From NCBI GenBank assembly GCA_016196755.1, contig JACPXC010000045.1, positions 1 to 64,000 on the forward strand: a stretch of 64,000 nt of DNA, written 5' to 3'. Below the pieces are notes generated by a model that did no database searches, was not told the DNA's origin, and was given only the letters and a program-made list of their open reading frames with translations. Made by a program: the position numbers and the translations under genes. This stretch comes from Elusimicrobiota bacterium (GTDB taxonomy: Bacteria > Elusimicrobiota > Elusimicrobia > UBA1565). Shown here piece by piece: positions 41,948-56,129 of the stretch (position 1 is its first letter; every line of letters starts with the position of its first letter).

Positions 41948-43323
41948 CGCGCCTCCTCGCCGCGCTCTGGCTGGCGCTCCCGTCCGCGGCCTCGGCGGCG
42001 CCGCTCTCCCCCCTGGGCCGCGCGGCCGCCGAGACCCTCAAGGCCCTGGTACGCATCGACACCTCCAATCCCCCGGGCAACGAGCGCCCCGCCTGCGAGA
42101 GCCTGGCCGAGGTCCTCGCCGCGGCCGGCGTCCCGTACGAGATCGTCGAGTCGACCCCCGGGAGGGCCAGCCTGGTCGCCCGCCTCAAGGGAGACTCCTC
42201 GCGCCGCCCGCTCCTGCTCCTGGCCCATCTCGACACGGTGGGCGTCGAAGCCGAGCGCTGGAGCTTCCCCCCCTTGGCCGGCGACGAGAAGGACGGGGCC
42301 GTCCGCGGGCGGGGTGCTGTCGACGACAAGTCGATGGCGGCGGTCTTCGCCGTCGTCCTCGCCGACCTGGCCAAGCGTGGAGTCCGCCTCAAGCGCGACG
42401 TCGTCCTGGCCGCCGTCGCCGACGAGGAGTCCGGGGGGCGATGGGGCATCAAGTGGCTGCTCGAGCATCGCCCGGAGCTGCTCGACGCCGAGCTGGCCCT
42501 CAACGAGGGCGGCACCACGTTCACGCGCGGCGGCAAGGTCCGGATATTCGCCGTCCAGGTCCAGGAGAAGGAGTACCTCGACCTGACGGTCACGGCCCGC
42601 GGCGCGGGCGGCCACGCCTCGGTGCCCGATCCGGACAACGCCGTCCTGCGCCTGGCCCGGGCGCTGGTCCGGCTCGACGAGCGCCGCGTCGAGCCCCGGG
42701 TCTCCCCCGTAGCGCGCGCCTACTTCGAGGCCCTGCGCGGCATCGAGACGCCCGAGCTCTCGGCCGCCTTCGACGACCTGCTCTCCGACGACGAGGAGCG
42801 CGTCGAGCGCGGCGGCGAGCTCCTGCGCGAGAACCCCTACTATTGGGCCATGGTCGCCGATACCTGGGCGCCCACTTTGCTCTCCGGGGGCTTTCGCGAG
42901 AACGTCCTCCCCTCCGAGGCGCGCGCGAACCTCAACGTGCGCCTGCTCCCGGACACCGACTCCGAGCGCTTCCTCGAGGACCTGCGCGCCGTCGCCGAGG
43001 ACGCCGGCGTCGGCCTCGAGATGGTCTCGGGGCCCGAGGGCGCCCCGCCTCCGGCGGCCCCGCTCGACGGAGCGTTCTGGACCGCGCTCCGCGGCGTGGT
43101 GGCGGGCCTGAGCCCGGGGGCCGTCGTCGTCCCGTCGATGTCCGTCGGCTCGACCGACGCGGCTGTGCTGCGCCGCCGGGGCGTGGCGGTCTACGGCCTC
43201 GAGTTCCCTCTCTCGCCCGACGACCAGTCCCGGATCCACGGACACGATGAGCGCATGCCGCTGGCAGGGCTCGAGTACGGCGTGACGCTGGTCTCCCGGC
43301 TGGTCACGGAGCTGGCCCGATGA
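41944..43323 (+). CDS. M20-family metallopeptidase, secreted
   Basis: The 459-residue protein starts at GTG with a signal-like MTRLLAALWLALPSAASAAP. The di-zinc site is visible: LAHLDTVGVE, RGAVDDKSMAA, DEESGGRWG and HGHDERMPLAG. A dimerisation domain lies at about 190-310. It removes C-terminal residues or splits dipeptides. The signal suggests periplasmic action, consistent with feeding peptide importers. Confidence 0.88.
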   Translation: MTRLLAALWLALPSAASAAPLSPLGRAAAETLKALVRIDTSNPPGNERPACESLAEVLAAAGVPYEIVESTPGRASLVARLKGDSSRRPLLLLAHLDTVGVEAERWSFPPLAGDEKDGAVRGRGAVDDKSMAAVFAVVLADLAKRGVRLKRDVVLAAVADEESGGRWGIKWLLEHRPELLDAELALNEGGTTFTRGGKVRIFAVQVQEKEYLDLTVTARGAGGHASVPDPDNAVLRLARALVRLDERRVEPRVSPVARAYFEALRGIETPELSAAFDDLLSDDEERVERGGELLRENPYYWAMVADTWAPTLLSGGFRENVLPSEARANLNVRLLPDTDSERFLEDLRAVAEDAGVGLEMVSGPEGAPPPAAPLDGAFWTALRGVVAGLSPGAVVVPSMSVGSTDAAVLRRRGVAVYGLEFPLSPDDQSRIHGHDERMPLAGLEYGVTLVSRLVTELAR

Positions 43324-44834
43324 GCCCCGTCCAGGCCCGCGTCCTGGCGTTTTTCTCCGGGGCCTGCGTCCTCGTGCTCGAGCTCGTGGGGACGCGTCTG
43401 CTCTCCCCGGTCTTCGGCTCGTCGATCTACGTCTGGTCGGCGCTGATCACCGTCACGCTGGCCGCGCTGGCCGTGGGCGCCTGGTTGGGCGGGCTCCTGG
43501 CCGACGGCAGGAAGCCCGAGCGCTGGCCGCCGCGGCTCTGCGCCGCGGCCGGGCTCTGGCTGGCCGCGGTGCCGCTCATCCGGCGCGGCGTGCTCTTGGC
43601 GGCGACCGGCCTCGGCCTCAAGACCGGAGCGCTGGCGGCGGCGGCGGTCCTCGTCGGAGGCCCTCTGACGGCGCTGGGCGCGCTCGCTCCGCTCTGCGTG
43701 CGCTGCTGCGCCTCCGACCTGGCCCGGGTGGGCCGCGCGGCCGGCGGGGTCTCCTCGCTCTCGACGGCCGGCAGCGTCCTCGGCGCGCTCGCCGCGGGCT
43801 TCTGGCTCCTGCCGCTCCTGTCGGCCCCCGTCGTGGTCGAAGGGACGGCGGCCTTCCTCCTGGCGGCCGGCGCGTTTCTGGCCTGGGGCCCGCGCAAGGG
43901 AGCGGTCGGGGCTGTCGCGGGGGCGCTCGCCTGCTGGGCGGCTTTCCGGACCGTCCCGCCGCCGGGCTCGCGCCACCATATCGTGCGCGAGAGCGTCGAC
44001 TCGCTCTACGGCGCGGTCCGAGTGGTCGACCGCGAGGACTGGAACAGCCGGGTCCTCTTCATCGACGGCGTCGCCAACACCCTAGCCGAGCTCGCCACGC
44101 TCAAGAACACCTCCGACTACATCGCCGCCTTCGAGCTGGCGGCCGCCGCGAGGCCGGAGGCCAAGCGCGCCCTCGTGGTGGGCCTTGGCGGCGGGGCCAT
44201 CGTCGGCCGGCTGCGCGACGGCTGGGGCATCCCGGCCGACGCCGTCGAGATCGACCCGACGATCGTCCGCATGGCCGAGCGCTGGTTCGACTTCAAGCCC
44301 AGCGGCGAGGTCATCATCGACGACGGCCGGCGCGTGCTCGAGCGCGAGGGCCCGTCCTACGGCCTCATCTATCTGGACGCGTTCGCCGGGGACTCGAGCC
44401 CCGAGCAGATCTTCAGCGTGGAGTCCTTCCGGGCCGCGAAGCGGCGCCTGGCGCCGAGGGGTCTGCTCATCGTCAACCTCATCGGCACCGCTACCGGGCC
44501 GGACAACGACCTGGCGCGCGCCGCCCAGCGCACCCTGCGCGAGGTGTTCCCCTCGGTCTCCATGCTGGTGGCCAGCCGGACCTTGGACTGGCGCACCGGC
44601 ATCACCAACCTGGTGTTCTTCGCCGGCGACGCGCCGGCCCTGCCCGCCGCCGGCGTCGCCGGCCGTCCCGAGCTTCTGCAGTATTGGATCTCGGTCTCGG
44701 ACCGTTGGGTCGACCCCGGTCCGGACGGACGGCTGCTGACTGACGACTCCTCCGCCATGAGCTACCTCACCGCCCCGGGGATGGCCCGGATGCGCACGCA
44801 GATGCTCGCCCATCGCGAGGGCGTCGAGCTTTGA
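43320..44834 (+). CDS. fused membrane / spermidine-synthase-like protein
   Basis: The 504-residue protein has an N-terminal membrane part of about 6-8 segments (MSPVQARVLAFFSGACVLVLELVGTRLLSP, written in two pieces by domain: segment 1 near 10-30). It is followed by a SpeE-like Rossmann fold with VVGLGGGAIVG near residue 288 and an acidic VEIDPTIVRMAE. The residues that bind putrescine in true SpeE are not obvious, so the methyl- or aminopropyl-transfer substrate is unknown. The family is common in large genomes. It overlaps the next gene (TTG start) by 4 bases. Confidence 0.78.
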   Translation: MSPVQARVLAFFSGACVLVLELVGTRLLSPVFGSSIYVWSALITVTLAALAVGAWLGGLLADGRKPERWPPRLCAAAGLWLAAVPLIRRGVLLAATGLGLKTGALAAAAVLVGGPLTALGALAPLCVRCCASDLARVGRAAGGVSSLSTAGSVLGALAAGFWLLPLLSAPVVVEGTAAFLLAAGAFLAWGPRKGAVGAVAGALACWAAFRTVPPPGSRHHIVRESVDSLYGAVRVVDREDWNSRVLFIDGVANTLAELATLKNTSDYIAAFELAAAARPEAKRALVVGLGGGAIVGRLRDGWGIPADAVEIDPTIVRMAERWFDFKPSGEVIIDDGRRVLEREGPSYGLIYLDAFAGDSSPEQIFSVESFRAAKRRLAPRGLLIVNLIGTATGPDNDLARAAQRTLREVFPSVSMLVASRTLDWRTGITNLVFFAGDAPALPAAGVAGRPELLQYWISVSDRWVDPGPDGRLLTDDSSAMSYLTAPGMARMRTQMLAHREGVEL

Positions 44835-45673: not shown

Positions 45674-46212
45674 TCGCCGGGTTCGGACATGTACATCGGG
45701 GTGTCCGGCTCGTTGACCGGAAACTCCGGGACCGGCTCCTCGACGGGCGGCGGACGCCGCGCCGGCGGGCGGCGGCGGGGCCGCGGGGCGACGTAGGGGT
45801 CGTCCTCGCCGGGGTCCCCGCCAAGCTCCAGGTGCAGGCGGACGACCCTCGCGCCCTCGACCGCGTAGGCCACCGCGTCGCCGCGGCGCAGCTGGCCGAT
45901 CATGAGCGGGCGCTCGTCGGCGGCGAAGCTCAGGCGCGCGGAGTCAGGGACCTGATAGGCCTGTTCGACGCCGTCCTCGTGCTCGAGAACGACCTTGCGC
46001 TCCTTGGCGTCCACCGAGACCAGGCGGCCGAGGCCGTGGGCTTTGACGCCGGCTTTCCCGGGCGGAGTCGGCGGCGGCAGTTCCTCGCGCTCGGAATCGG
46101 AATCGAACATAACCCGTCCCTCCTCGGGCGGCGGCTCGGCGGGAAGCGGGGTAGCGGCGTGCTGGGCGGCCGAAGCGGAAAGAGCGAAGGCCAGCAGGAA
46201 GACTGTCATCAT
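45670..46212 (-). CDS. secreted Pro-rich small protein coupled to the SpeE-MFS gene
   Basis: The 180-residue product has a signal peptide (MMTVFLLAFALSASAAQ). A short domain reads GRLVSVDAKERKVVLEHEDG and RRGDAVAYAVEGARVVRLHL, like a small OB or SH3 barrel. A Pro/Arg-rich tail follows. The start may be either of two adjacent ATGs (46212 or 46209). The first overlaps the upstream gene stop as TGATG, so it is translated with it. Function unknown. Confidence 0.6.
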   Translation of the reverse strand: MMTVFLLAFALSASAAQHAATPLPAEPPPEEGRVMFDSDSEREELPPPTPPGKAGVKAHGLGRLVSVDAKERKVVLEHEDGVEQAYQVPDSARLSFAADERPLMIGQLRRGDAVAYAVEGARVVRLHLELGGDPGEDDPYVAPRPRRRPPARRPPPVEEPVPEFPVNEPDTPMYMSEPGD

Positions 46213-49007
46213 CCGGGCTCCTTTCCGTAGGACTTCATCAGGAAATCGAAGAGCGACTTCGCCTTCTCGTGGTCCGGGTCGGCCTTGAGCGCCTCGCCCA
46301 GCGCGTCGGCGGCCTCGCCGCCTTTGCCGTCGTCCATCGACCACTGCGCGGCCTTCATCCACATGTCGGCGGCGCGCGTGCCCTTGAGGCGCTTGGCGGC
46401 GGCCACCGCGGCGCGGCGGGCCCCGGCGTCGTCGCCGGTGGCGCGCCAGGCGTCGGCGGCCACGAGCAAGGCCTCGACGCTGGGATGCGCCATGTCGCCG
46501 AGCGCCGTCAGGGCCTCCCCGGGCCGGCCGTTCTCGAACTCGATGCGCGCCAGCCAGACCCGCGGGGCCTCGGCGCCAGGGCGTGCCTTGGCCCACTCCT
46601 TGGCCAGAGCCAGGCGCCAGGCGTCGCGGCGGCCGGAGTTGTAGGTGAGGACGGCGGCATATTCCTCGTCGCTCAAGCGCCGCTTCTTCCAGGCCAGGTA
46701 GCGGCGCAGCAGCAGCTCCTCGCGCCGCGGACCGAAGCCGTCCTCGACGCTCTCGAGCAGCTCGGCGATCGAGCGCAGGTAGCGCCCGCGCGGCGCGGCG
46801 TACTCGAGGAAGGGGCGCAGGTCCTGGTTCAGGCGGCCGTCCTTGGTCGATTCGCGGGTGCTGGGGTCGCCGACCGTCTGGAGGGAGAGCAGGGCGCCTA
46901 GGCCGGGCAGGCCGCCCTTCTTGAGCAGCTCGGCCGGCGGGCCGCTCAGGCGCCGGTCCATGGCCGCGAAGTCGGGCTCCGTACGGCCGTTGAAGCCCAC
47001 GACGAACGCGTCGGCGCCGTTGGTGCGCCAGATCGAGACGTCGTCGAAGGCCTCCGAGAAGCTGCGTAGGACGCTCTTGACCGCCTCGTCGTCGGTCTCA
47101 TAGACGTGGAACCATTGGACCATGACGCCGCCGGGCGCCAGCCGAGAGCGGGCCAGGCGGAAATACTCGACGGTGAACAGGTTGCCGACCCCGGCGATCC
47201 AGGGGTTCGAGGGCTCGCTGACGATGGCGTCCCAGGTCCCCTTCGCTTTGCGCAGGACGGCCCGTCCGTCGCCGACATGGAGGCGCAGGCGAGGGTCTCT
47301 GAGCGGAGCGCCGCTGTTGCCGTTGAAGAAGGCCGAGGCGGCGACGACGGCCGGGGAGATCTCGACGACATCGAGGCGCTCGATGGGCCAGAGCAGGGAG
47401 GTGCCCGCGGTGACGCCCGAGCCCAAGCCTACCAGCAGGGCGGTCTTGGCCTCGGGCCGCAGGACAAACGGGAGCTGGCCCAGCAGGCGCTGGGTGCTCA
47501 TGTCGACGCCGTTGGAGGCGTCGGCCTTCCCGTTGATCATCAGCGCGCGCAGTTTCTCGGCGGGCATCTCCATGACGCTGACCGAGGCCTCGGCGTCGTC
47601 CTGCTGGAAGAGGACCGCGCGCCGCAGGCGCAGGGCGTCGAGGTATTCGTGGAACGAGAGGTCGAACACTCCCTGGAAGCGGTGGGTGCCGACCGCCAGG
47701 AGCAGGCGGTCCCAGGAGCCTCCCCAGAGCAGGTGCACCCCGAAGGCCGCGGCCCCGAAGGCCGCCACGGCGGCGCGGCGTCGGCGCGGCCAGGAGCCGT
47801 CGGCGCCGACGATCAGGGCGCCCAGCGTGATGTTGACGGCGGCCCCCGCCGTCAAGAGCCCTTGGACGCCGAGCGCCGGCAGGAGGTAGAGGCCCGCCGT
47901 CATGGCGCCGACCACGTTTCCCAAGGCGGCCACGGCGCCGACGGCACCCACGCCGGTGCCGATCATCCCCAGCCGCGCGGCCGCGGTCCGGCTGGCCAGC
48001 GGAAAGGCCGCGCCGAGGAAAGCTGTGGGAAGGAGGGTCAGGAGGAAGCAGAAGCCCAGCTTGCCGGCCTCGAAGAAGTAGTAGCCGCTCTGCGTCTTGG
48101 CGATCAGAGCACTCATCCGGTAAAACAGCCAGGGCAAGCGCTCGTAGACCGGCCAGAAAGCCAGGACGGCCAGCCCGGCGCCGAGCTGGGCCAGGCCGAA
48201 CAGACGCGCCGAGGGCCAGCGGGGCAGGCGGCCCGTGGCGACGGCCAGCGAGCCCAGCCCCATGCCGGCGACAAATCCGGTCAGCATCGCCGTGAAGGAG
48301 TATGTCGAGGCGCCGAGCACGACCGCCATCATCCGGACCCAAGCCGCCTCGTAGCACAGCGTGACGACGCCCGAGACTAAGACGGCGGCAAGGACCAGCC
48401 AGGCCGGCACCCTGTCGGCGCTCTCCGCCTCCGGCTCCGGCGCGACGCCGGGTTCGGGGCCGAAGTCGCGGTCGAAATAGTAGGCGCCGACGGCCACGAG
48501 CAGGCCCACCCCGGCGAAGAGATGGCTGGTCCCGATCAGGCCCAGCCATGGGATCAGCACGAAGCCGGAGAGCAGCGCCCCGAGCGCCGCGCCGGCGTTG
48601 TTGACCGTGTAGAGCCGGGAGACGGTCCGCTCGAGCCCCCCCTCGGAGTGTACGCCGCGCGCCAGGGCCGGCAGGGTCCCTCCCATGAGTACCGCCGCCA
48701 GGGTGACGAGGAGGATGCCGCCCGGCAGAGGCAGGACCCAGGGGGCGACGAAGCCGCAGAGCGCTATCCCGAGCTCGAGGAGAGCGAAGAGACGCAGGGG
48801 GCGTTCGGCTTCGTCGGCGGAGGGGCCGAGCAGGAAGCCGCCGGCGGCCAGGCCGCCTAGGAAGGCGGCCAGCACGGCCGCCTGAGCGGCGGCGTTGCCG
48901 CCGAGGGTGAGGGTCAGGAACTTGGCCCAGACCACCTCGTAGCCCAGCGCGCAGGCGCCGGAGAGGAGGAAGAAGACGCCGACGACGAAACGCGAGGCGC
49001 GCGTCAC
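46209..49007 (-). CDS. MFS-like membrane protein fused to spermidine-synthase and TPR domains
   Basis: The 932-residue protein has about 12-14 membrane segments at residues 1-430. It then has a SpeE-like domain with LLVGLGSGVTAG near residue 490, VVEISPAVV and the EPSNPWIAGVGNLF motif. TPR-like helices occupy the C-terminal 200 residues (ADAWRATGDDAGARR). Start is GTG. Proteins of this layout are widespread and their substrate is unknown. The gene at 43320 has a similar but smaller plan. Confidence 0.78.
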   Translation of the reverse strand: MTRASRFVVGVFFLLSGACALGYEVVWAKFLTLTLGGNAAAQAAVLAAFLGGLAAGGFLLGPSADEAERPLRLFALLELGIALCGFVAPWVLPLPGGILLVTLAAVLMGGTLPALARGVHSEGGLERTVSRLYTVNNAGAALGALLSGFVLIPWLGLIGTSHLFAGVGLLVAVGAYYFDRDFGPEPGVAPEPEAESADRVPAWLVLAAVLVSGVVTLCYEAAWVRMMAVVLGASTYSFTAMLTGFVAGMGLGSLAVATGRLPRWPSARLFGLAQLGAGLAVLAFWPVYERLPWLFYRMSALIAKTQSGYYFFEAGKLGFCFLLTLLPTAFLGAAFPLASRTAAARLGMIGTGVGAVGAVAALGNVVGAMTAGLYLLPALGVQGLLTAGAAVNITLGALIVGADGSWPRRRRAAVAAFGAAAFGVHLLWGGSWDRLLLAVGTHRFQGVFDLSFHEYLDALRLRRAVLFQQDDAEASVSVMEMPAEKLRALMINGKADASNGVDMSTQRLLGQLPFVLRPEAKTALLVGLGSGVTAGTSLLWPIERLDVVEISPAVVAASAFFNGNSGAPLRDPRLRLHVGDGRAVLRKAKGTWDAIVSEPSNPWIAGVGNLFTVEYFRLARSRLAPGGVMVQWFHVYETDDEAVKSVLRSFSEAFDDVSIWRTNGADAFVVGFNGRTEPDFAAMDRRLSGPPAELLKKGGLPGLGALLSLQTVGDPSTRESTKDGRLNQDLRPFLEYAAPRGRYLRSIAELLESVEDGFGPRREELLLRRYLAWKKRRLSDEEYAAVLTYNSGRRDAWRLALAKEWAKARPGAEAPRVWLARIEFENGRPGEALTALGDMAHPSVEALLVAADAWRATGDDAGARRAAVAAAKRLKGTRAADMWMKAAQWSMDDGKGGEAADALGEALKADPDHEKAKSLFDFLMKSYGKEPG

Positions 49008-49060: not shown

Positions 49061-51238
49061 ATGACGGCGTCCGCGGTTTCCGCGATCAGGGCTTGCTACG
49101 ACGCCGGGCTGAGCGCGGTCTCCTTTTCCGTCTTGGCCGGGGCGGCCGCCATCGCGGCGGTCGGTCCTTTGCGGGCGAGGCTGGAGGCCGCGCTGGCGCG
49201 CGGGGACGCGCTCGAAGGAAAGCGCGCGGCGGCGCTCCTTCGCGCCGCGGCCGTCCTGCTCCTGCTCGGCGCCCTCGCGCTGAAGGCTGTCCAGTACCTC
49301 TCCTTCCAACTGCTCTCCGACGCCGCCGTCATCGCCAACACGGCCGCCTCGGTCCTCGACGGCCGGGGGCTGGCCTGCTCGATCGACGGCACGCCCAGCG
49401 TCCTGACGGTCCATTTCGCCTTCTTCATCCCGCTCTTCCTGTCCCCCCTCCTCCTGGCGTGGCCGAGCATCCTCGTCCTCGCGCTGGCGCAGGCCGCGGC
49501 GGTGGTCTCGTGCATCGCGGCCGCGTATCGGATCGCCGCGCGGACTTCGCGTTGGGCGGGCCTCTTGGCCGCGACGGCCGTGGCCTGCCATCCTCTCCTT
49601 CACGAGCTCCTGACGGCCAACGTCGAGAACGCGGTATGGGGCGCGCCTCTGGCGCTATGGGGTCTGGAGCGCTGGACCGCTGGCCGCCGCCCCTGGGCGG
49701 TCTGGCTCTGGGTCCTGGCGCTGACGACCCGGGAGTCCTTCCCGTTCACCGTAGCGGGGCTGGGCGTCTGGTGGGCGCTGACGGAGGGCCGCGAGAACCG
49801 GAGTCGGGTCCCCATCGCGGCGGCCGTCGTCCTCGGAGCGGCGCTGCTGTGGCTCCTCGAGATGAAGGTCGTCTGGTCGCACGCCTACGGAGACTCTCTG
49901 AACGCGGGCTATTGGAGCCGCTACGCGCATTTCGGGGCCAACAGCACGGAGGTCATGGCGACCGTCTTTCGGCGCCCTTGGCGTCTGGCGCTCTGGATGC
50001 TCCGTCCCGAGGGCTGGGTGCTCCTCCTCCGGGAGGCGGCTCTGATGGGCCTGGCGCCGCTGGCCGCCCCGGCGGCGTTGCTCCTCTACGCGGCCTCGGC
50101 CTCCCATTATCTCCTGCAGGAGACCTACAACCTCTCGGTCCAGAACGCGTCGTACGTCTTTGGGCCGCTGGCTTTCGCGGCGGCTTCCGGCCTCGCCCGA
50201 CTCGATGCCCATCCGCGCCTGGCGGGCCGCCGGGCCTGGCTCGCCGTCCCCGTCCTTCTTGCGGCCGGCATCGGCCTGCGCGACGCCTCGCGCGTGGTGC
50301 ATCCCAGCCTCGGACTCGACATCGTCTCGGCCGGGCCGGCGCTGGTCGGGCGCGTGCCCCGAGGGGCGTCCGTCTGGGCTGACGAGTTCGCCGGCCTCTG
50401 GCTGAGCGCCCGCCCCCAGGTGAAGCTGCTCAGGGTCGGAGGTCTTCCGGTCCGCTTCGAGCGGCTGCTGTTCCGTCCCGAATACGTCCTGCTGAGGAAG
50501 GTCTCGGCGGCCACCATGCCGCCGGAGGAGCGCGCGAGGACGTTCTCGTTTTTCGCCCGCGAAGGCTACGTCGCGGTGGCCGACTCGGGCCCGCTGGTCC
50601 TGGTCAAGGACCCGGAGGCTCCCCATGGCCGGTCGGGTTCCCCGGCGCTCTCCCTGCCGCCCGGGTCCGGAGACCCGGCCCTGGCGGCTCGCTGGCTGGG
50701 GGCGCTCTTTGACTCCGAGCGGACCAGGACGGCTTTGGCGGCCTATCCGCCCGACCTCCGCGTCGAACCCTACGCCGCCGAGGAGCACGTCAACCTGGGC
50801 CGCGCGTTGTCGGGCCGCGGCCTCTACCCTCTTGCGTCCTCCCATTTCCGGGCGGCGTTGGCGCTGCAGCCCGACCTGCTCGAGGCGCACAACAACCTCG
50901 GAAACGCCCTCATGGCCCAAGGCCGGATGGCGGAGGCGGAGGCCTCGCTGCGCGCCGCCTTGGCTCGCGCTCCCGGCAATTCCAAGGTTCGCTACAACCT
51001 CGGCAATGTCCTGCTGAAGACCGGCAAGCTGGCCGAGGCGGCCGCGCAGTTCGAGGCCGGGCTGGCGGCGGAGCCGCGCAACGCGCAGCTGCTCAACAGC
51101 CTGGGCGCGGCGCACCTCCTGTCGGGACGGCGCGACGCCGCGCGCGCCGCCTTCGAGGCGGCGCTGGCGGTCGATCCGGGGCTGACCGACGCGGCGGAGA
51201 ATCTGAGGGTCCTGGGCCGGCGCGCTAAAGGCAGCTGA
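49061..51238 (+). CDS. DUF2079 membrane protein with TPR tail (paralogue 1)
   Basis: The 725-residue protein has about 10-12 membrane segments in residues 10-400. It carries DUF2079 traits: VHFAFFIPLFLSPLLL, a GRGLACS loop and the ALTTRES motif. A soluble domain follows, containing FRPEYVLLRK. Three or more TPR repeats begin near 565 (LEAHNNLGNALMAQGRMAEAE). DUF2079 is thought to relate to glycosyltransferases of the PMT/GT-C type, with the acidic loop near the first helix. It shares length and plan with the gene at 52205. Confidence 0.75.
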   Translation: MTASAVSAIRACYDAGLSAVSFSVLAGAAAIAAVGPLRARLEAALARGDALEGKRAAALLRAAAVLLLLGALALKAVQYLSFQLLSDAAVIANTAASVLDGRGLACSIDGTPSVLTVHFAFFIPLFLSPLLLAWPSILVLALAQAAAVVSCIAAAYRIAARTSRWAGLLAATAVACHPLLHELLTANVENAVWGAPLALWGLERWTAGRRPWAVWLWVLALTTRESFPFTVAGLGVWWALTEGRENRSRVPIAAAVVLGAALLWLLEMKVVWSHAYGDSLNAGYWSRYAHFGANSTEVMATVFRRPWRLALWMLRPEGWVLLLREAALMGLAPLAAPAALLLYAASASHYLLQETYNLSVQNASYVFGPLAFAAASGLARLDAHPRLAGRRAWLAVPVLLAAGIGLRDASRVVHPSLGLDIVSAGPALVGRVPRGASVWADEFAGLWLSARPQVKLLRVGGLPVRFERLLFRPEYVLLRKVSAATMPPEERARTFSFFAREGYVAVADSGPLVLVKDPEAPHGRSGSPALSLPPGSGDPALAARWLGALFDSERTRTALAAYPPDLRVEPYAAEEHVNLGRALSGRGLYPLASSHFRAALALQPDLLEAHNNLGNALMAQGRMAEAEASLRAALARAPGNSKVRYNLGNVLLKTGKLAEAAAQFEAGLAAEPRNAQLLNSLGAAHLLSGRRDAARAAFEAALAVDPGLTDAAENLRVLGRRAKGS

Positions 51239-52166
51239 GGATCAGCCAGGCCGCGGCGGAGAGGTAGAGGGCCAGCAGGACGGCCAGCGCCTGGCGGTCG
51301 GCCGTCACCGCGCGCGCCACGCTGCCGCGCTCGAGGAGCCAGGTGCTGCGCACCACCACGCCCAAGCCGGAGATCATGAAAAGGTAGGCGCCCAGGTAGA
51401 CCTTGTCCATGAGGACCAGGTAGGAGATCTCCGGCAGCTCGTCGTTGAGGGTGATCTGCAGGGCCACCACCGTCAATAGCGCGGTGATGCCTATCCCGAC
51501 ACGCGAGTCCACGTGACGGGGGTGGAAGAGGAACATGAGCGCCGCGCAGAGCACCACGCAGAGGATGGGCACCAGGAGCTTCGCCGCGTAGGTGAGGCGC
51601 GGCCGCTCGATGGGGACCTCGAGACGCACGCGGGAATAAGTCTCCGGGCGGGTCCGCCGAGGGTCGCCGAAGGCCGTCGGATAGGCCCTTGGAGCGACGC
51701 TCAAGCGCGGCTTGCCGATGCGGAACCCCGGCAGCTCCAGGGCTGGGTCGACGGTGGCGGCGTCGGGTCCGGCGCGGTACTCGAGCTCGTCGGCCCCGCG
51801 CCGGTGGTCCTCGAAGTCCACCACAAGGGTCTGGCGGTCGAAGGGATAGTCGTCGAGCCGGAGCTTCCGGCTGAAGCGGCCGTTGACGCGCACGACCTGG
51901 TAGAGCTCCCCCCCGGCGCGCACCGGCTTCTCGTGGTCGAGCTGGCGGGTCTGGCTCCAGGTCTCGAAGGGGTTGATGAACTCCAGTGTGGCGGCCGGGT
52001 CGAGCGCGGGGTCGGTCCAGCGGAACCAGAGGTAGAGGTCCACGCTGTAGCTGTGGGTCTTCACGTCGAGGTCGTGGATGTCGTTGACGTGCACGCCGAC
52101 CGAGACGGGCGACGGCGACCCGGCGGCGGGGAGGGCCAGGCAGGCGGCCAGGGCGGCGGCGAGCAT
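51225..52166 (-). CDS. pentameric ligand-gated ion channel homologue
   Basis: The 313-residue protein has a signal peptide (MLAAALAACLALPAAGSP). A beta-sandwich ligand-binding domain follows, with the pro-loop DDYPFDRQTLVVDFED that stands where the Cys-loop is in animals, without the cysteines. Four membrane helices follow: M1 LLVPILCVVLCAAL, M2 RVGIGITALLTVVALQITLN, M3 YLVLMDKVYLGAYLFMI and M4 ALAVLLALYLSAAAWLI. This is the plan of the prokaryotic channels GLIC and ELIC. AGGAG is 6 bases before the ATG. It overlaps the DUF2079 gene end by 14 bases. Confidence 0.9.
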   Translation of the reverse strand: MLAAALAACLALPAAGSPSPVSVGVHVNDIHDLDVKTHSYSVDLYLWFRWTDPALDPAATLEFINPFETWSQTRQLDHEKPVRAGGELYQVVRVNGRFSRKLRLDDYPFDRQTLVVDFEDHRRGADELEYRAGPDAATVDPALELPGFRIGKPRLSVAPRAYPTAFGDPRRTRPETYSRVRLEVPIERPRLTYAAKLLVPILCVVLCAALMFLFHPRHVDSRVGIGITALLTVVALQITLNDELPEISYLVLMDKVYLGAYLFMISGLGVVVRSTWLLERGSVARAVTADRQALAVLLALYLSAAAWLILSCL

Positions 52167-52177
52167 GGTCGTCTCCT

Positions 52178-52183
52178 AGTATA
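52178..52183 (-). promoter_or_regulatory. -10 element TATACT for the ion channel gene
   Basis: TATACT on the minus strand is 11 bases upstream of the ATG, directly before the AGGAG Shine-Dalgarno. It is divergent from the TACAAT promoter of the second DUF2079 gene. Confidence 0.45.
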
Positions 52184-52191
52184 ACACAAGG

Positions 52192-52197
52192 TACAAT
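52192..52197 (+). promoter_or_regulatory. -10 element TACAAT before the second DUF2079 gene
   Basis: TACAAT is 7 bases before the ATG at 52205 with no Shine-Dalgarno, the same arrangement as at 49049. Confidence 0.5.
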
Positions 52198-52204
52198 CCC
52201 GGCA

Positions 52205-54382
52205 ATGGGAGCCTTCATCGCGGCCGCGGCCGGCGCGCACGACGCTCTCCTGGCCGGGTTGGGCGGGGCGGCTTGGGCCGCCGCGGCGGCGCTCCTCGTT
52301 CCCAAGGTCCGGGAGTGGATATCCCTGGCGCTGGATAGGCTGGACGCCGCTGGGCCGGGGTCCCTGGCCCGTGCCGTCTTGGCCTGCGGGGCGCTGGCGG
52401 CAGCGTATCTCTGCTTTCTGAAGTCGTGCCAGTACTACGGTTTCCAGCTTCCCTCCGACACGTCATATATGGTCAATTCCACCGCCAATTTCTTGGCGGG
52501 CCGCGGCCTGGCCTCGACCGTCTTCGGCGTGCCCAGCGTCCTTTCGGTGCATTTCGCGTTCTTCGTCCCCGTGTTCCTGTCCCCGGTCCTGTTCTTCTGG
52601 CCCAGCGCGCTGGCGCTTTTGTTCCTGCAATCCGCGGCCCTGGCCTCGATGGGCCCGGCGGCTTACTTCCTGGCGAGGCGGCGCTGCGGGAACGGGTTGG
52701 CGCTGGTGCTCATGGCCCTAGTCCTGGCGCATCCCTCGCTGCAGGCGATGGCGGCCTCCAATCTCGACGACGCGGTCTTTCTCGCTCCTCTCACCTTATG
52801 GGGGATGGCGCTGTGGGCGTCGGGGCGCGGCCGGTGGGCGGCGGTCGCGCTGCTCTTGGCTCTGACGACCCGCGAGCAGGTGCCGATCACGATCGCCGGC
52901 GCGGGGCTCTGCTGGGGCCTGTTCGCCGACCGGCCTTGGCGCCGGCGCGCCGTCGAGGGAGCGGCCGTCGTCCTCGGCGCGGCGGCGCTGTGGTTTGCCG
53001 AGATGCGGGTGGTGGCGGCCCATGGCAGCGCTCTTGAAGCCGACCTTTTTTCGCGCTACTCCAACCTGGGCAATACCCCCTCGGAGGTCATCGGGACCGT
53101 CCTGAGCAGGCCCTGGCTTCTCGCGCGCGCGATGGTATGGCCTCCGGCGCATATCGCTCCGTTGGCCGCGACCGCGCTGTTTATGGGGCTTTTCCCCTTG
53201 GCGCATCCACCGACCTTCGTCTTTTTCTGGCTGTCCTCCGCGCACCACCTCCTCCAGGCGAATTACGTCTTCGAACTGCGCGAGGGGGCCTACTCATTTG
53301 CCCCTTTGGTCCTGGCCGCCGCTTTCGGACTCGCAAGACTCGGGGCTCTGCCGAAGCTTCGAGGGCGACGCGCCTGGATCCTGGCGCCGGCGCTGGCCGC
53401 CGTCGGCCTCGGTCTGCGCGGCGCCCCGCGTACCCTGCTCACAGGATTTGGGGAGCAGTACCTCCAGGCCGCTCCGCCGCTGGCGGCGCTGGTGCCTCCC
53501 AAGGCCAGCGTATGGGCGGAGGAGTATGTCGGAGTTTGGCTGGCGGCCCGGCCGGAATTGAAGCTCATCCACGGGGACCGGCTGTCGCTGCGCTTCGACG
53601 AGCTGCTGTTCCGGCCTGAATACGTTCTGTTGGATAAAGGGACCCTGCTGTTTCTTCCGCCCGATGACAAGGAGCGGGTGCTGGGTTTCCTGGCGCGGGA
53701 AGGCTACGCCAAGGTGTCGGAAGCGGGCTCCCTCGTGCTCCTCAAGGATCCCGACGCTCCGCGCGGAGGCTTCTCTCCGTCTTTGACGCTCGAGCGGCGA
53801 GCGGAGGACGCCGGCCGTCTCGAGGCCTATCTGGTCGGGATCTTGGATTCGGAGCGCAGCCGGACCCTCCTCGCGGACCTTCCTCCCGACCTTCGATACG
53901 AGCCTGAGGGAGCGGACCAGAGGATGCGATTCGCCCAACTTCTCCTTACGCGCGGTCTCACGGCGCAGGCGGCGCCGCATGCCAAGCAGGCGGTGGCTAT
54001 GCGGCCGGATCAATGGGAGGGTCGGGCCGTCCTGGCCGATGTCCTGGCCAAGCAAGGGGATTGGGAGGGAGCTCTGCGCGAGTATGAGGCCGCTGCGTCG
54101 CTCAACCCGCGCTCCGCCGACGTGCTCATGGGCGTCGGAAATCATCTGCTCCGAGGCGGCAAGGTCGGAGCGGCCCTGCGCCGCTACGACGAGGCTCTGC
54201 TGCTGGAGCCGGGCAAGTCGGCCCTCCACTCCAACCGCGGGGTGGCTCTCCAGCTGATCGGCCGGCGGGAGAAGGCCCGCCTGGCGTTCCTTGAGGCGCT
54301 GCGCCTCGATCCCGGCAACGCGACCGCCAAGCGCCACCTCGCTCAACCCGCGGTGGCTGAGCGCCCCGTCCCGAAACGCTAG
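52205..54382 (+). CDS. DUF2079 membrane protein with TPR tail (paralogue 2)
   Basis: The 725-residue protein matches paralogue 1 along its length: VHFAFFVPVFLSPVLF, LALTTREQ, FRPEYVLLDK and a TPR tail with LLEPGKSALHSNRG. It has about 10-12 membrane segments. The shared length and promoter box suggest a local duplication that kept the ion channel between the copies. Function probably concerns the cell envelope, by family. Confidence 0.75.
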   Translation: MGAFIAAAAGAHDALLAGLGGAAWAAAAALLVPKVREWISLALDRLDAAGPGSLARAVLACGALAAAYLCFLKSCQYYGFQLPSDTSYMVNSTANFLAGRGLASTVFGVPSVLSVHFAFFVPVFLSPVLFFWPSALALLFLQSAALASMGPAAYFLARRRCGNGLALVLMALVLAHPSLQAMAASNLDDAVFLAPLTLWGMALWASGRGRWAAVALLLALTTREQVPITIAGAGLCWGLFADRPWRRRAVEGAAVVLGAAALWFAEMRVVAAHGSALEADLFSRYSNLGNTPSEVIGTVLSRPWLLARAMVWPPAHIAPLAATALFMGLFPLAHPPTFVFFWLSSAHHLLQANYVFELREGAYSFAPLVLAAAFGLARLGALPKLRGRRAWILAPALAAVGLGLRGAPRTLLTGFGEQYLQAAPPLAALVPPKASVWAEEYVGVWLAARPELKLIHGDRLSLRFDELLFRPEYVLLDKGTLLFLPPDDKERVLGFLAREGYAKVSEAGSLVLLKDPDAPRGGFSPSLTLERRAEDAGRLEAYLVGILDSERSRTLLADLPPDLRYEPEGADQRMRFAQLLLTRGLTAQAAPHAKQAVAMRPDQWEGRAVLADVLAKQGDWEGALREYEAAASLNPRSADVLMGVGNHLLRGGKVGAALRRYDEALLLEPGKSALHSNRGVALQLIGRREKARLAFLEALRLDPGNATAKRHLAQPAVAERPVPKR

Positions 54383-54938: not shown

Positions 54939-56129
54939 CTATCTGCAGAGGTCTTTACGAGCTTCCGCAAGGGCATCCAAGGCAATCTCCCGTCGATGCA
55001 TTAGTACGAACAATAATGGAATCGTGAAGATGTAGATGTAATATTCGGCGACATCGAGTACCAAATCCCTCTGATCCAATGACACGGCGTCGCGGCCGAG
55101 AAGGGTATTTTTGGATAGCGCAACAATCATCTTGTAGTTGCGATCCCCGGGGGATAAGAGCGCAGATTTTATGCGAATAGCAGTTCCGGCTTGATCTTCT
55201 TTCCGGAGGCCATAGTATTCAAGTGGTTGCTCTAGTAGGCCTAAGAAGTCCTGCCCACTCGTATCTATCGTGATACCAACGTTGGTTATTGGTTTTGAAC
55301 CTCGATTTTCAAGTGTAAACCAGGACAGAAATACCGTGCTCTCGTTCATGGCGCGATAGAATTTCAACCGAACTTCCGGATCCGCAAGCTTCTCCCCCAA
55401 CGGATAGAGAGGGTCTTTGGCAAAGATAGCGAAAGCGGATAGTGCTGAACCTGGAGCCGCTTTCCCTGCGCGAGCGACCAAAAAGGAAAGGAGATTTGGA
55501 TCCTTCTTTGGAAGGATGGAGGTGTCCATGTCGTTCAGCGCGAAGTAGTGGCTAGAACTTGATACTGCGAGTTCACTGAATAGATCAAATCGCCACCAGT
55601 GGGCGAACAGAGCAGGTGGCGAATTCTGAAGGGTCTTCAGGCTGTCGACATTCGAGAGTTTTAGGAAGTTCCTAACTCGGGTATGAAATCTGGTGTCGGC
55701 ATCCTCATATCCCAGCGCATTTTTTACTTGCTTTAGCTTGAAGGCTGTGGTCTCCGACTCAGTTCTAATGTCGGCCGGCTTCGCTCTGGAATGTAACACT
55801 CCCAGAACTTTGAAATGTTTTTCTCTCTGAAAGAATAGTCGGACATCGTCCAGCTGCGAGCCGTCGGGATATGTAAAGCGAGCATTGAGTATGGGGAACT
55901 GCTCGAATAGCGTTTGTTTCTCAGCTTCCGGAAAATTCGTCGCCTGTAGATAGTTGCGCAGTGCGCCTACATCAACGATCGCCACCGGATTCTGCGCGCG
56001 GAGCTCTACGGGGCCTTCAAGAAGAGGTGTCCTGACTAGGATGCCAACGACCAGCGCGGCTCCTCCTAGTAGAGTGAGATACTCTTTGAGTATGGATAAG
56101 AGCACTGAGGAGCGAGTCAAATAACTCAC
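54939..56129 (-). CDS. AT-rich orphan membrane-anchored protein
   Basis: The 396-residue product begins at GTG and has a membrane segment near residues 16-33 and a second near 365-382, leaving most of the protein on one side. I recognise no family in between; PITNVGITIDTSGQDFLGLL may be a beta-sandwich. Base composition is clearly more AT-rich than the surrounding genes and codon use differs, suggesting recent acquisition. It lies between the coiled-coil gene and the lipid cluster, and starts 11 bases from the carboxylase stop. Confidence 0.65.
   Translation of the reverse strand: MSYLTRSSVLLSILKEYLTLLGGAALVVGILVRTPLLEGPVELRAQNPVAIVDVGALRNYLQATNFPEAEKQTLFEQFPILNARFTYPDGSQLDDVRLFFQREKHFKVLGVLHSRAKPADIRTESETTAFKLKQVKNALGYEDADTRFHTRVRNFLKLSNVDSLKTLQNSPPALFAHWWRFDLFSELAVSSSSHYFALNDMDTSILPKKDPNLLSFLVARAGKAAPGSALSAFAIFAKDPLYPLGEKLADPEVRLKFYRAMNESTVFLSWFTLENRGSKPITNVGITIDTSGQDFLGLLEQPLEYYGLRKEDQAGTAIRIKSALLSPGDRNYKMIVALSKNTLLGRDAVSLDQRDLVLDVAEYYIYIFTIPLLFVLMHRREIALDALAEARKDLCR

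Follow-up and report, generated by a model that had tools for sequence, protein, structure and literature searches.

The window analysed here, 64,000 nucleotides of an Elusimicrobiota contig, carries on the minus strand at 51225-52166 a gene for a subunit of a pentameric ligand-gated ion channel (pLGIC). The gene runs from an ATG at 52164-52166 to a stop codon at 51225-51227 and encodes 313 amino acids. An earlier note on this DNA had delimited the same open reading frame, which is real, and left its strand unstated. Since the five nucleotides AGGAG lie just ahead of the ATG and an in-frame TAG lies four codons upstream, the N-terminus can be taken as fixed. A promoter-like site on the same strand just upstream of the gene (52178-52205; TTGCCG, a 16-nt spacer and TATACT) is the sole sigma-70-like match within 51000-52600, where 0.1 would be expected from shuffled sequences, and a transcript starting from it would be almost leaderless.

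On either side of the channel gene is a plus-strand gene for a DUF2079 protein with C-terminal TPR repeats. The first, at 49061-51238, overlaps the 3' end of the channel gene by 14 bases (51225-51238), as previously described; the overlap is tail-to-tail between convergent genes and so implies no operon. The second, at 52205-54382, is divergent and leaves a gap of 38 bp at the channel start. The two proteins are paralogues with 43% identity, and a third copy is found elsewhere in the genome (G000:C28). Two proteins combining a membrane domain with a spermidine-synthase-like part are also encoded nearby, at 46209-49007 (minus strand, with TPR repeats) and 43320-44834 (plus strand). A 396-residue open reading frame at 54939-56129 (minus strand), which adjoins a carboxyltransferase gene, has hydrophobic ends and no match in Pfam or NCBIfam.

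Architecture and family identity of the channel protein

The protein begins with a hydrophobic segment (residues 1-18; 52113-52166, minus strand, as are all of its parts below), which we regard as a putative signal peptide. The signal named in the earlier note is present as a hydrophobic stretch, but it is short, at about 18 residues, and has no basic n-region. This region is missing throughout the window's genus, and clearer signal peptides are found in orthologues of other genera (L016, L019). AlphaFold2 places a helix at residues 2-9 with low confidence. We also considered Cys9 (LAAC) as part of a lipobox and rejected this, as the preceding stretch is too short and the cysteine is absent from orthologues.

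Residues 19-188 (51603-52112) form the extracellular ligand-binding domain, a beta-sandwich according to the predicted fold and the alignment. It is followed by four helices: M1 (residues 193-214; 51525-51590), the pore helix M2 (219-240; 51447-51512), M3 (246-279; 51330-51431) and, after a very short M3-M4 loop, M4 (283-312; 51231-51320). These boundaries come from an AlphaFold2 monomer built on a four-sequence alignment, with moderate confidence overall (pLDDT 68.5, pTM 0.56) and a pLDDT below 50 at the end of M2. In a Foldseek comparison with the PDB, the model matched only pLGICs among the 50 matches listed, with E-values down to 1.7e-17 and a probability of 1.00; these include GABA-A, glycine and GLIC receptors (E about 1e-17). 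Structure prediction had been put forward beforehand as the means by which the channel identity might fall, and the fold obtained is that of a pLGIC.

Profile searches agree with the fold. The protein matches the NCBIfam profiles TIGR00860 (LIC; 1.4e-22) and NF033918 (LGIC_1; 3.1e-17) significantly, but its scores of 80.1 and 62.9 bits lie far under the curated cut-offs of 280.2 and 500, respectively, which places it outside both named subfamilies. In Pfam, the ligand-binding domain PF02931 is above its gathering cut-off (27.2 versus 26 bits) and the transmembrane domain PF02932 slightly below (26 versus 28.1 bits). Searched against the PDB with phmmer as a single sequence, the protein found an ELIC/GABA-A chimera as its best match (1.5e-13); with a subfamily profile the best match reached 2.2e-24, followed by GLIC and ELIC.

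The conserved residues of the Pro-loop or pLGIC superfamily have been tabulated (PMC4795631, Table 1), and all of them are present here. The YPFDRQ Pro-loop occupies residues 107-112 (51831-51848), with Tyr107, Pro108 and Asp110 of the [F/Y]PxD motif (x being Phe109) invariant across 15 subfamily members. Equally invariant are the pre-M1 salt-bridge arginine Arg188 (GLIC Arg192), the M1 14' proline Pro200, the basic 0' residue Arg222 and the 9' leucine Leu231 of M2, and Pro245 of the M2-M3 loop. The aromatic residue of beta9 (GLIC Trp160) is Phe148, and Trp, Phe or Tyr in all members. The ectodomain (residues 19-188) has no cysteine, and with it no strict Cys-loop pair flanking the Pro-loop. 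A Cys-less Pro-loop receptor is the expectation for bacteria, and the earlier label of a Cys-loop channel was a misnomer. The channel identity that came with that label holds on profile, motif and fold. Computation demonstrates homology, fold, motifs and the conservation of the named residues; the protein is almost certainly a member of the pLGIC superfamily, and very probably a functional ion channel.

Distribution, descent and genomic neighbourhood

Because a genome search with PF02931 missed the window's own gene, presence was scored with a subfamily profile (A1). Orthologues with 55-80% identity to the window protein occur in 8 of 341 Elusimicrobiota genomes, in two families. Two further genomes of the phylum have other pLGIC types, so that any pLGIC detectable with this profile is found in 10 genomes and none in the remaining 331, in keeping with the rarity and scatter noted before. 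In the alphaproteobacterial order that includes Hirschia, 7 of 299 genomes carry the same subfamily; a genome holds a single copy. In a tree of 21 rows the elusimicrobial members form one group (support 91/98) and the alphaproteobacterial members another (88/95), with the outer long branches unsure. Values of dN/dS between 0.25 and 0.44 among four elusimicrobial copies indicate purifying selection. The distribution is sparse but partly vertical, and fits either descent within the two families accompanied by losses or one old transfer. Carriage by a plasmid or phage was considered and rejected: the best plasmid matches are only about 30% identical (Azospirillum, Streptomyces), and no relatives were found in phages or IMG/VR.

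The position of the channel between two DUF2079 genes had raised the idea of a functional unit in envelope biosynthesis. Direct adjacency, with the 14-bp overlap on one side and the 38-bp gap on the other, speaks for such a unit. However, the channel gene and the two DUF2079 genes are on different strands, which excludes a common operon, and a check of relatives found no conserved adjacency. No homologue of the window genes (at 1e-8) was detected near seven elusimicrobial orthologues or at the Hirschia locus, and an all-against-all comparison revealed no neighbour common to different elusimicrobial genera. Instead, the genes immediately flanking the orthologues vary by genus and are housekeeping or regulatory genes of unrelated kinds, for example a protein kinase, a methyladenine glycosylase, an aminotransferase and an acyl-CoA dehydrogenase. 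Some orthologue contigs are short (7-9 kb), but three genomes are independent of this limit. In G004 an orthologue of the DUF2079-TPR gene (51%) is on contig C61 and the channel on C125. Genomes G001 and G002, of the same genus, have the channel and no close DUF2079-TPR homologue (at best 35% in G001, and TPR-only matches in G002). Since neighbours are not conserved and the two genes are separable, the envelope hypothesis finds no comparative support and is extremely improbable; the adjacency in the window is accidental. A polyamine link through the fused MFS/spermidine-synthase-like genes was dropped in the same way: they have no homologue near any orthologue and are therefore not used as evidence for an amine ligand.

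In four of seven alphaproteobacterial genomes, the channel gene has downstream of it a gene for a secreted von Willebrand A protein (L073:9071-10398, L076:9427-10170, L077:6577-7943 and the end of L075), with a rhodanese-like gene in between in two. Outside Elusimicrobiota, the von Willebrand A protein is a candidate for a functional partner of the channel. A search of elusimicrobial genomes, run without a positive control, detected no homologue.

Pocket, pore and gating

For comparison, the 15 members of the subfamily were aligned with GLIC, the ectodomain of ELIC, two other elusimicrobial channels (the periplasmic-binding-protein fusion of G038 and the GLIC-type channel of G036) and homologues from Azospirillum and Streptomyces. 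Between the beta2 tryptophan (Trp50) and the loop A asparagine (Asn65) all 15 members have 14 residues. The fusion has 12 residues there and the homologues from Azospirillum and Streptomyces have 14, against 32 for GLIC and 36 for ELIC. Compared with GLIC and ELIC, the subfamily segment is thus 18-22 residues shorter, and the W-x-P motif is missing in every member. Trp82 and Pro84 of AChBP are described as belonging to a conserved path that links the ligand box with the inner sheet (PMC549065), and we take them to be the W-x-P motif of this segment. A search of solved structures with the 92-residue short-ectodomain stretch alone gave no match. Other bacterial pLGICs have the short segment too, and it probably figures in older alignments; we therefore make no claim of its newness.

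Within this compact ectodomain, four pocket residues are invariant in all 15 members: Tyr45 (52032-52034; ELIC Tyr38, loop D), Glu62 (51981-51983; ELIC Glu77), Glu119 (51810-51812; ELIC Glu131, loop B) and Tyr162 (51681-51683; the loop C tyrosine of ELIC). A fifth, Tyr177, is Tyr, Phe or His in the alignment. In ELIC, Glu77 and Glu131 adjoin the amine of bound bromopropylamine, and mutants at these positions are unresponsive (PMC3119659; its loop C numbers 174 and 187 are 175 and 188 when counted from the PDB sequence). Both glutamates are kept in the Azospirillum and Streptomyces homologues. They are replaced by Arg and Ile in GLIC, by Ile and Gln in the GLIC-type elusimicrobial channel and by Gln and Ala in the fusion, which argues that the pair is not merely structural. 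Two other ELIC pocket residues are not kept, with Phe133 corresponding to His121 (variable) and Asn103 to Val91, and with the beta2-to-loop A segment and its W-x-P missing, the geometry of the pocket may differ from that of ELIC. Taken together, these residues suggest an amine-type agonist, a prediction to which we give somewhat less than even odds.

For selectivity, position -2' of M2 is Asp or Glu in all 15 members (compare GLIC Glu222) and is the sole residue that supports a cation pore; position -1' is Ser, Ala or Gly, resembling the anion-type A-R motif (PMC549065). On this footing the channel is probably cation-selective. The weak Pfam scores, and a literature which as far as we found holds no experiment on subfamily members, might be taken to suggest a non-conducting ligand-binding relic or a receptor without channel function. 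Yet M2 is among the most conserved stretches, the gate and -2' residues are kept in all members and dN/dS is well under 1, so that this reading is very unlikely.

The best explanation, at a probability of roughly 0.5, is an amine-gated, cation-selective homopentamer that opens to the periplasm; we infer the pentamer, the side, the ligand, the selectivity and the role. The single Cys-less subunit would most likely form a pentamer in the inner membrane, its five beta-sandwich domains projecting into the periplasm. The ligand would be a small primary amine bound at the interface of two subunits. As in ELIC, two glutamates (Glu62 and Glu119) would hold the amine, and Tyr45, Tyr162 and Tyr177 would box it in. 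Closure of the pocket would then be relayed to M2 by way of the YPFD Pro-loop, Arg188 and the M2-M3 loop with Pro245, and the Leu231 (9') girdle would open. Since the Asp220 (-2') ring would favour cations, binding would be expected to give a cation influx and depolarise the cell.

Two other ways of gating were weighed against this. The invariant glutamates could bind the amino end of a zwitterion, with Arg49 and Arg93 holding its carboxylate, or alternatively Ca2+. Both arginines are invariant alongside Glu62 and Glu119 in the 15 members, and DeCLIC demonstrates calcium control among prokaryotic pLGICs (PMC9897478). ELIC and GLIC, however, likewise have arginine at the position of Arg93, whose role may be structural, and a zwitterion- or divalent-gated channel seems rather unlikely. 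Still less likely, by a small step, is a GLIC-like proton-gated cation channel that has no organic ligand and senses periplasmic pH through titratable residues close to where ectodomain and membrane meet, chiefly His38, along with Asp29. Here GLIC Glu26 corresponds to Asp29 (Asp in 15 of 15), Glu35 to His38 (His in 12 of 15, including all Elusimicrobiota), and the -2' acid is kept. Glu35 is the key proton sensor of GLIC, but the E35H mutant is less proton-sensitive (PMC5760087), and His38 is Asn or Tyr in three members. The titratable set Glu35, His235 and Glu243 of GLIC reads His38, Val233 (never His) and Asn241 in the window protein, and Asp32 is Val35. Proton gating also leaves the invariant pair of pocket glutamates unexplained.

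The amine-gated reading can be carried further to the subfamily as a whole, whose short ectodomain keeps an ELIC-like acidic amine pocket. Its members could be amine-gated cation channels whose minimal ectodomain arose by loss of the beta2-to-loop A segment of GLIC and ELIC, and whose natural ligand a small screen would find; this is possible, though doubtful.

Comparison with known channels

Prokaryotic pLGICs and fusions of a periplasmic-binding-protein domain (PBP-I) to a pLGIC have been known since 2004 (PMC549065). An inventory of 2016 counted 193 bacterial pLGIC sequences without mention of Elusimicrobiota in its main text, and described the in vivo role of prokaryotic members as unstudied (PMC4795631). 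We found no literature joining Elusimicrobiota with ligand-gated channels. The window gene is therefore an addition to a known, rare bacterial channel family in a phylum not previously highlighted. If it encodes an ordinary pLGIC, it merely extends the family to another phylum. The subfamily is compact and single-copy, and with its invariant ELIC-like pocket and its deletion of 18-22 residues it allows a specific prediction of ligand class. It also serves as a natural experiment on whether gating requires the beta2-to-loop A segment, which has been assigned to the signal conduit (PMC549065).

The pore of ELIC, from Erwinia (Dickeya) chrysanthemi, has its acidic residue at -1', whereas that of the window protein is at -2'. 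The two proteins share the Cys-less Pro-loop, the four helices and the very short M3-M4 loop, and the quartet Glu77/Glu131 and Tyr38/Tyr175 (Tyr174 in PMC3119659) corresponds to Glu62/Glu119 and Tyr45/Tyr162. They differ in their low identity, in the beta2-to-loop A segment, which is 22 residues shorter in the window protein, and in Phe133 and Asn103, which are not kept. With the proton-gated GLIC of Gloeobacter, the window protein has in common the architecture, the Pro-loop, the pre-M1 arginine, the M1 and M2-M3 prolines and the acidic -2' ring (Glu222, here Asp220). GLIC, however, has no glutamate pair, its His235 and Glu243 are absent from the window protein, and its beta2-to-loop A segment is 18 residues longer.

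Within the phylum, the GLIC-type channel of G036 (L022:9220-10245; PF02931 at 2.6e-20), with its W-x-P segment present, belongs to a second pLGIC lineage. The fusion of G038, from the same order (L021:7829-9970), is a 714-residue protein in which an N-terminal Peripla_BP_6 domain (3e-46) is joined to a pLGIC. It has the same short beta2-to-loop A segment as the window protein but differs in the extra domain and in lacking the glutamate pair (Gln, Ala), as though the added domain had taken over the sensing of ligand.
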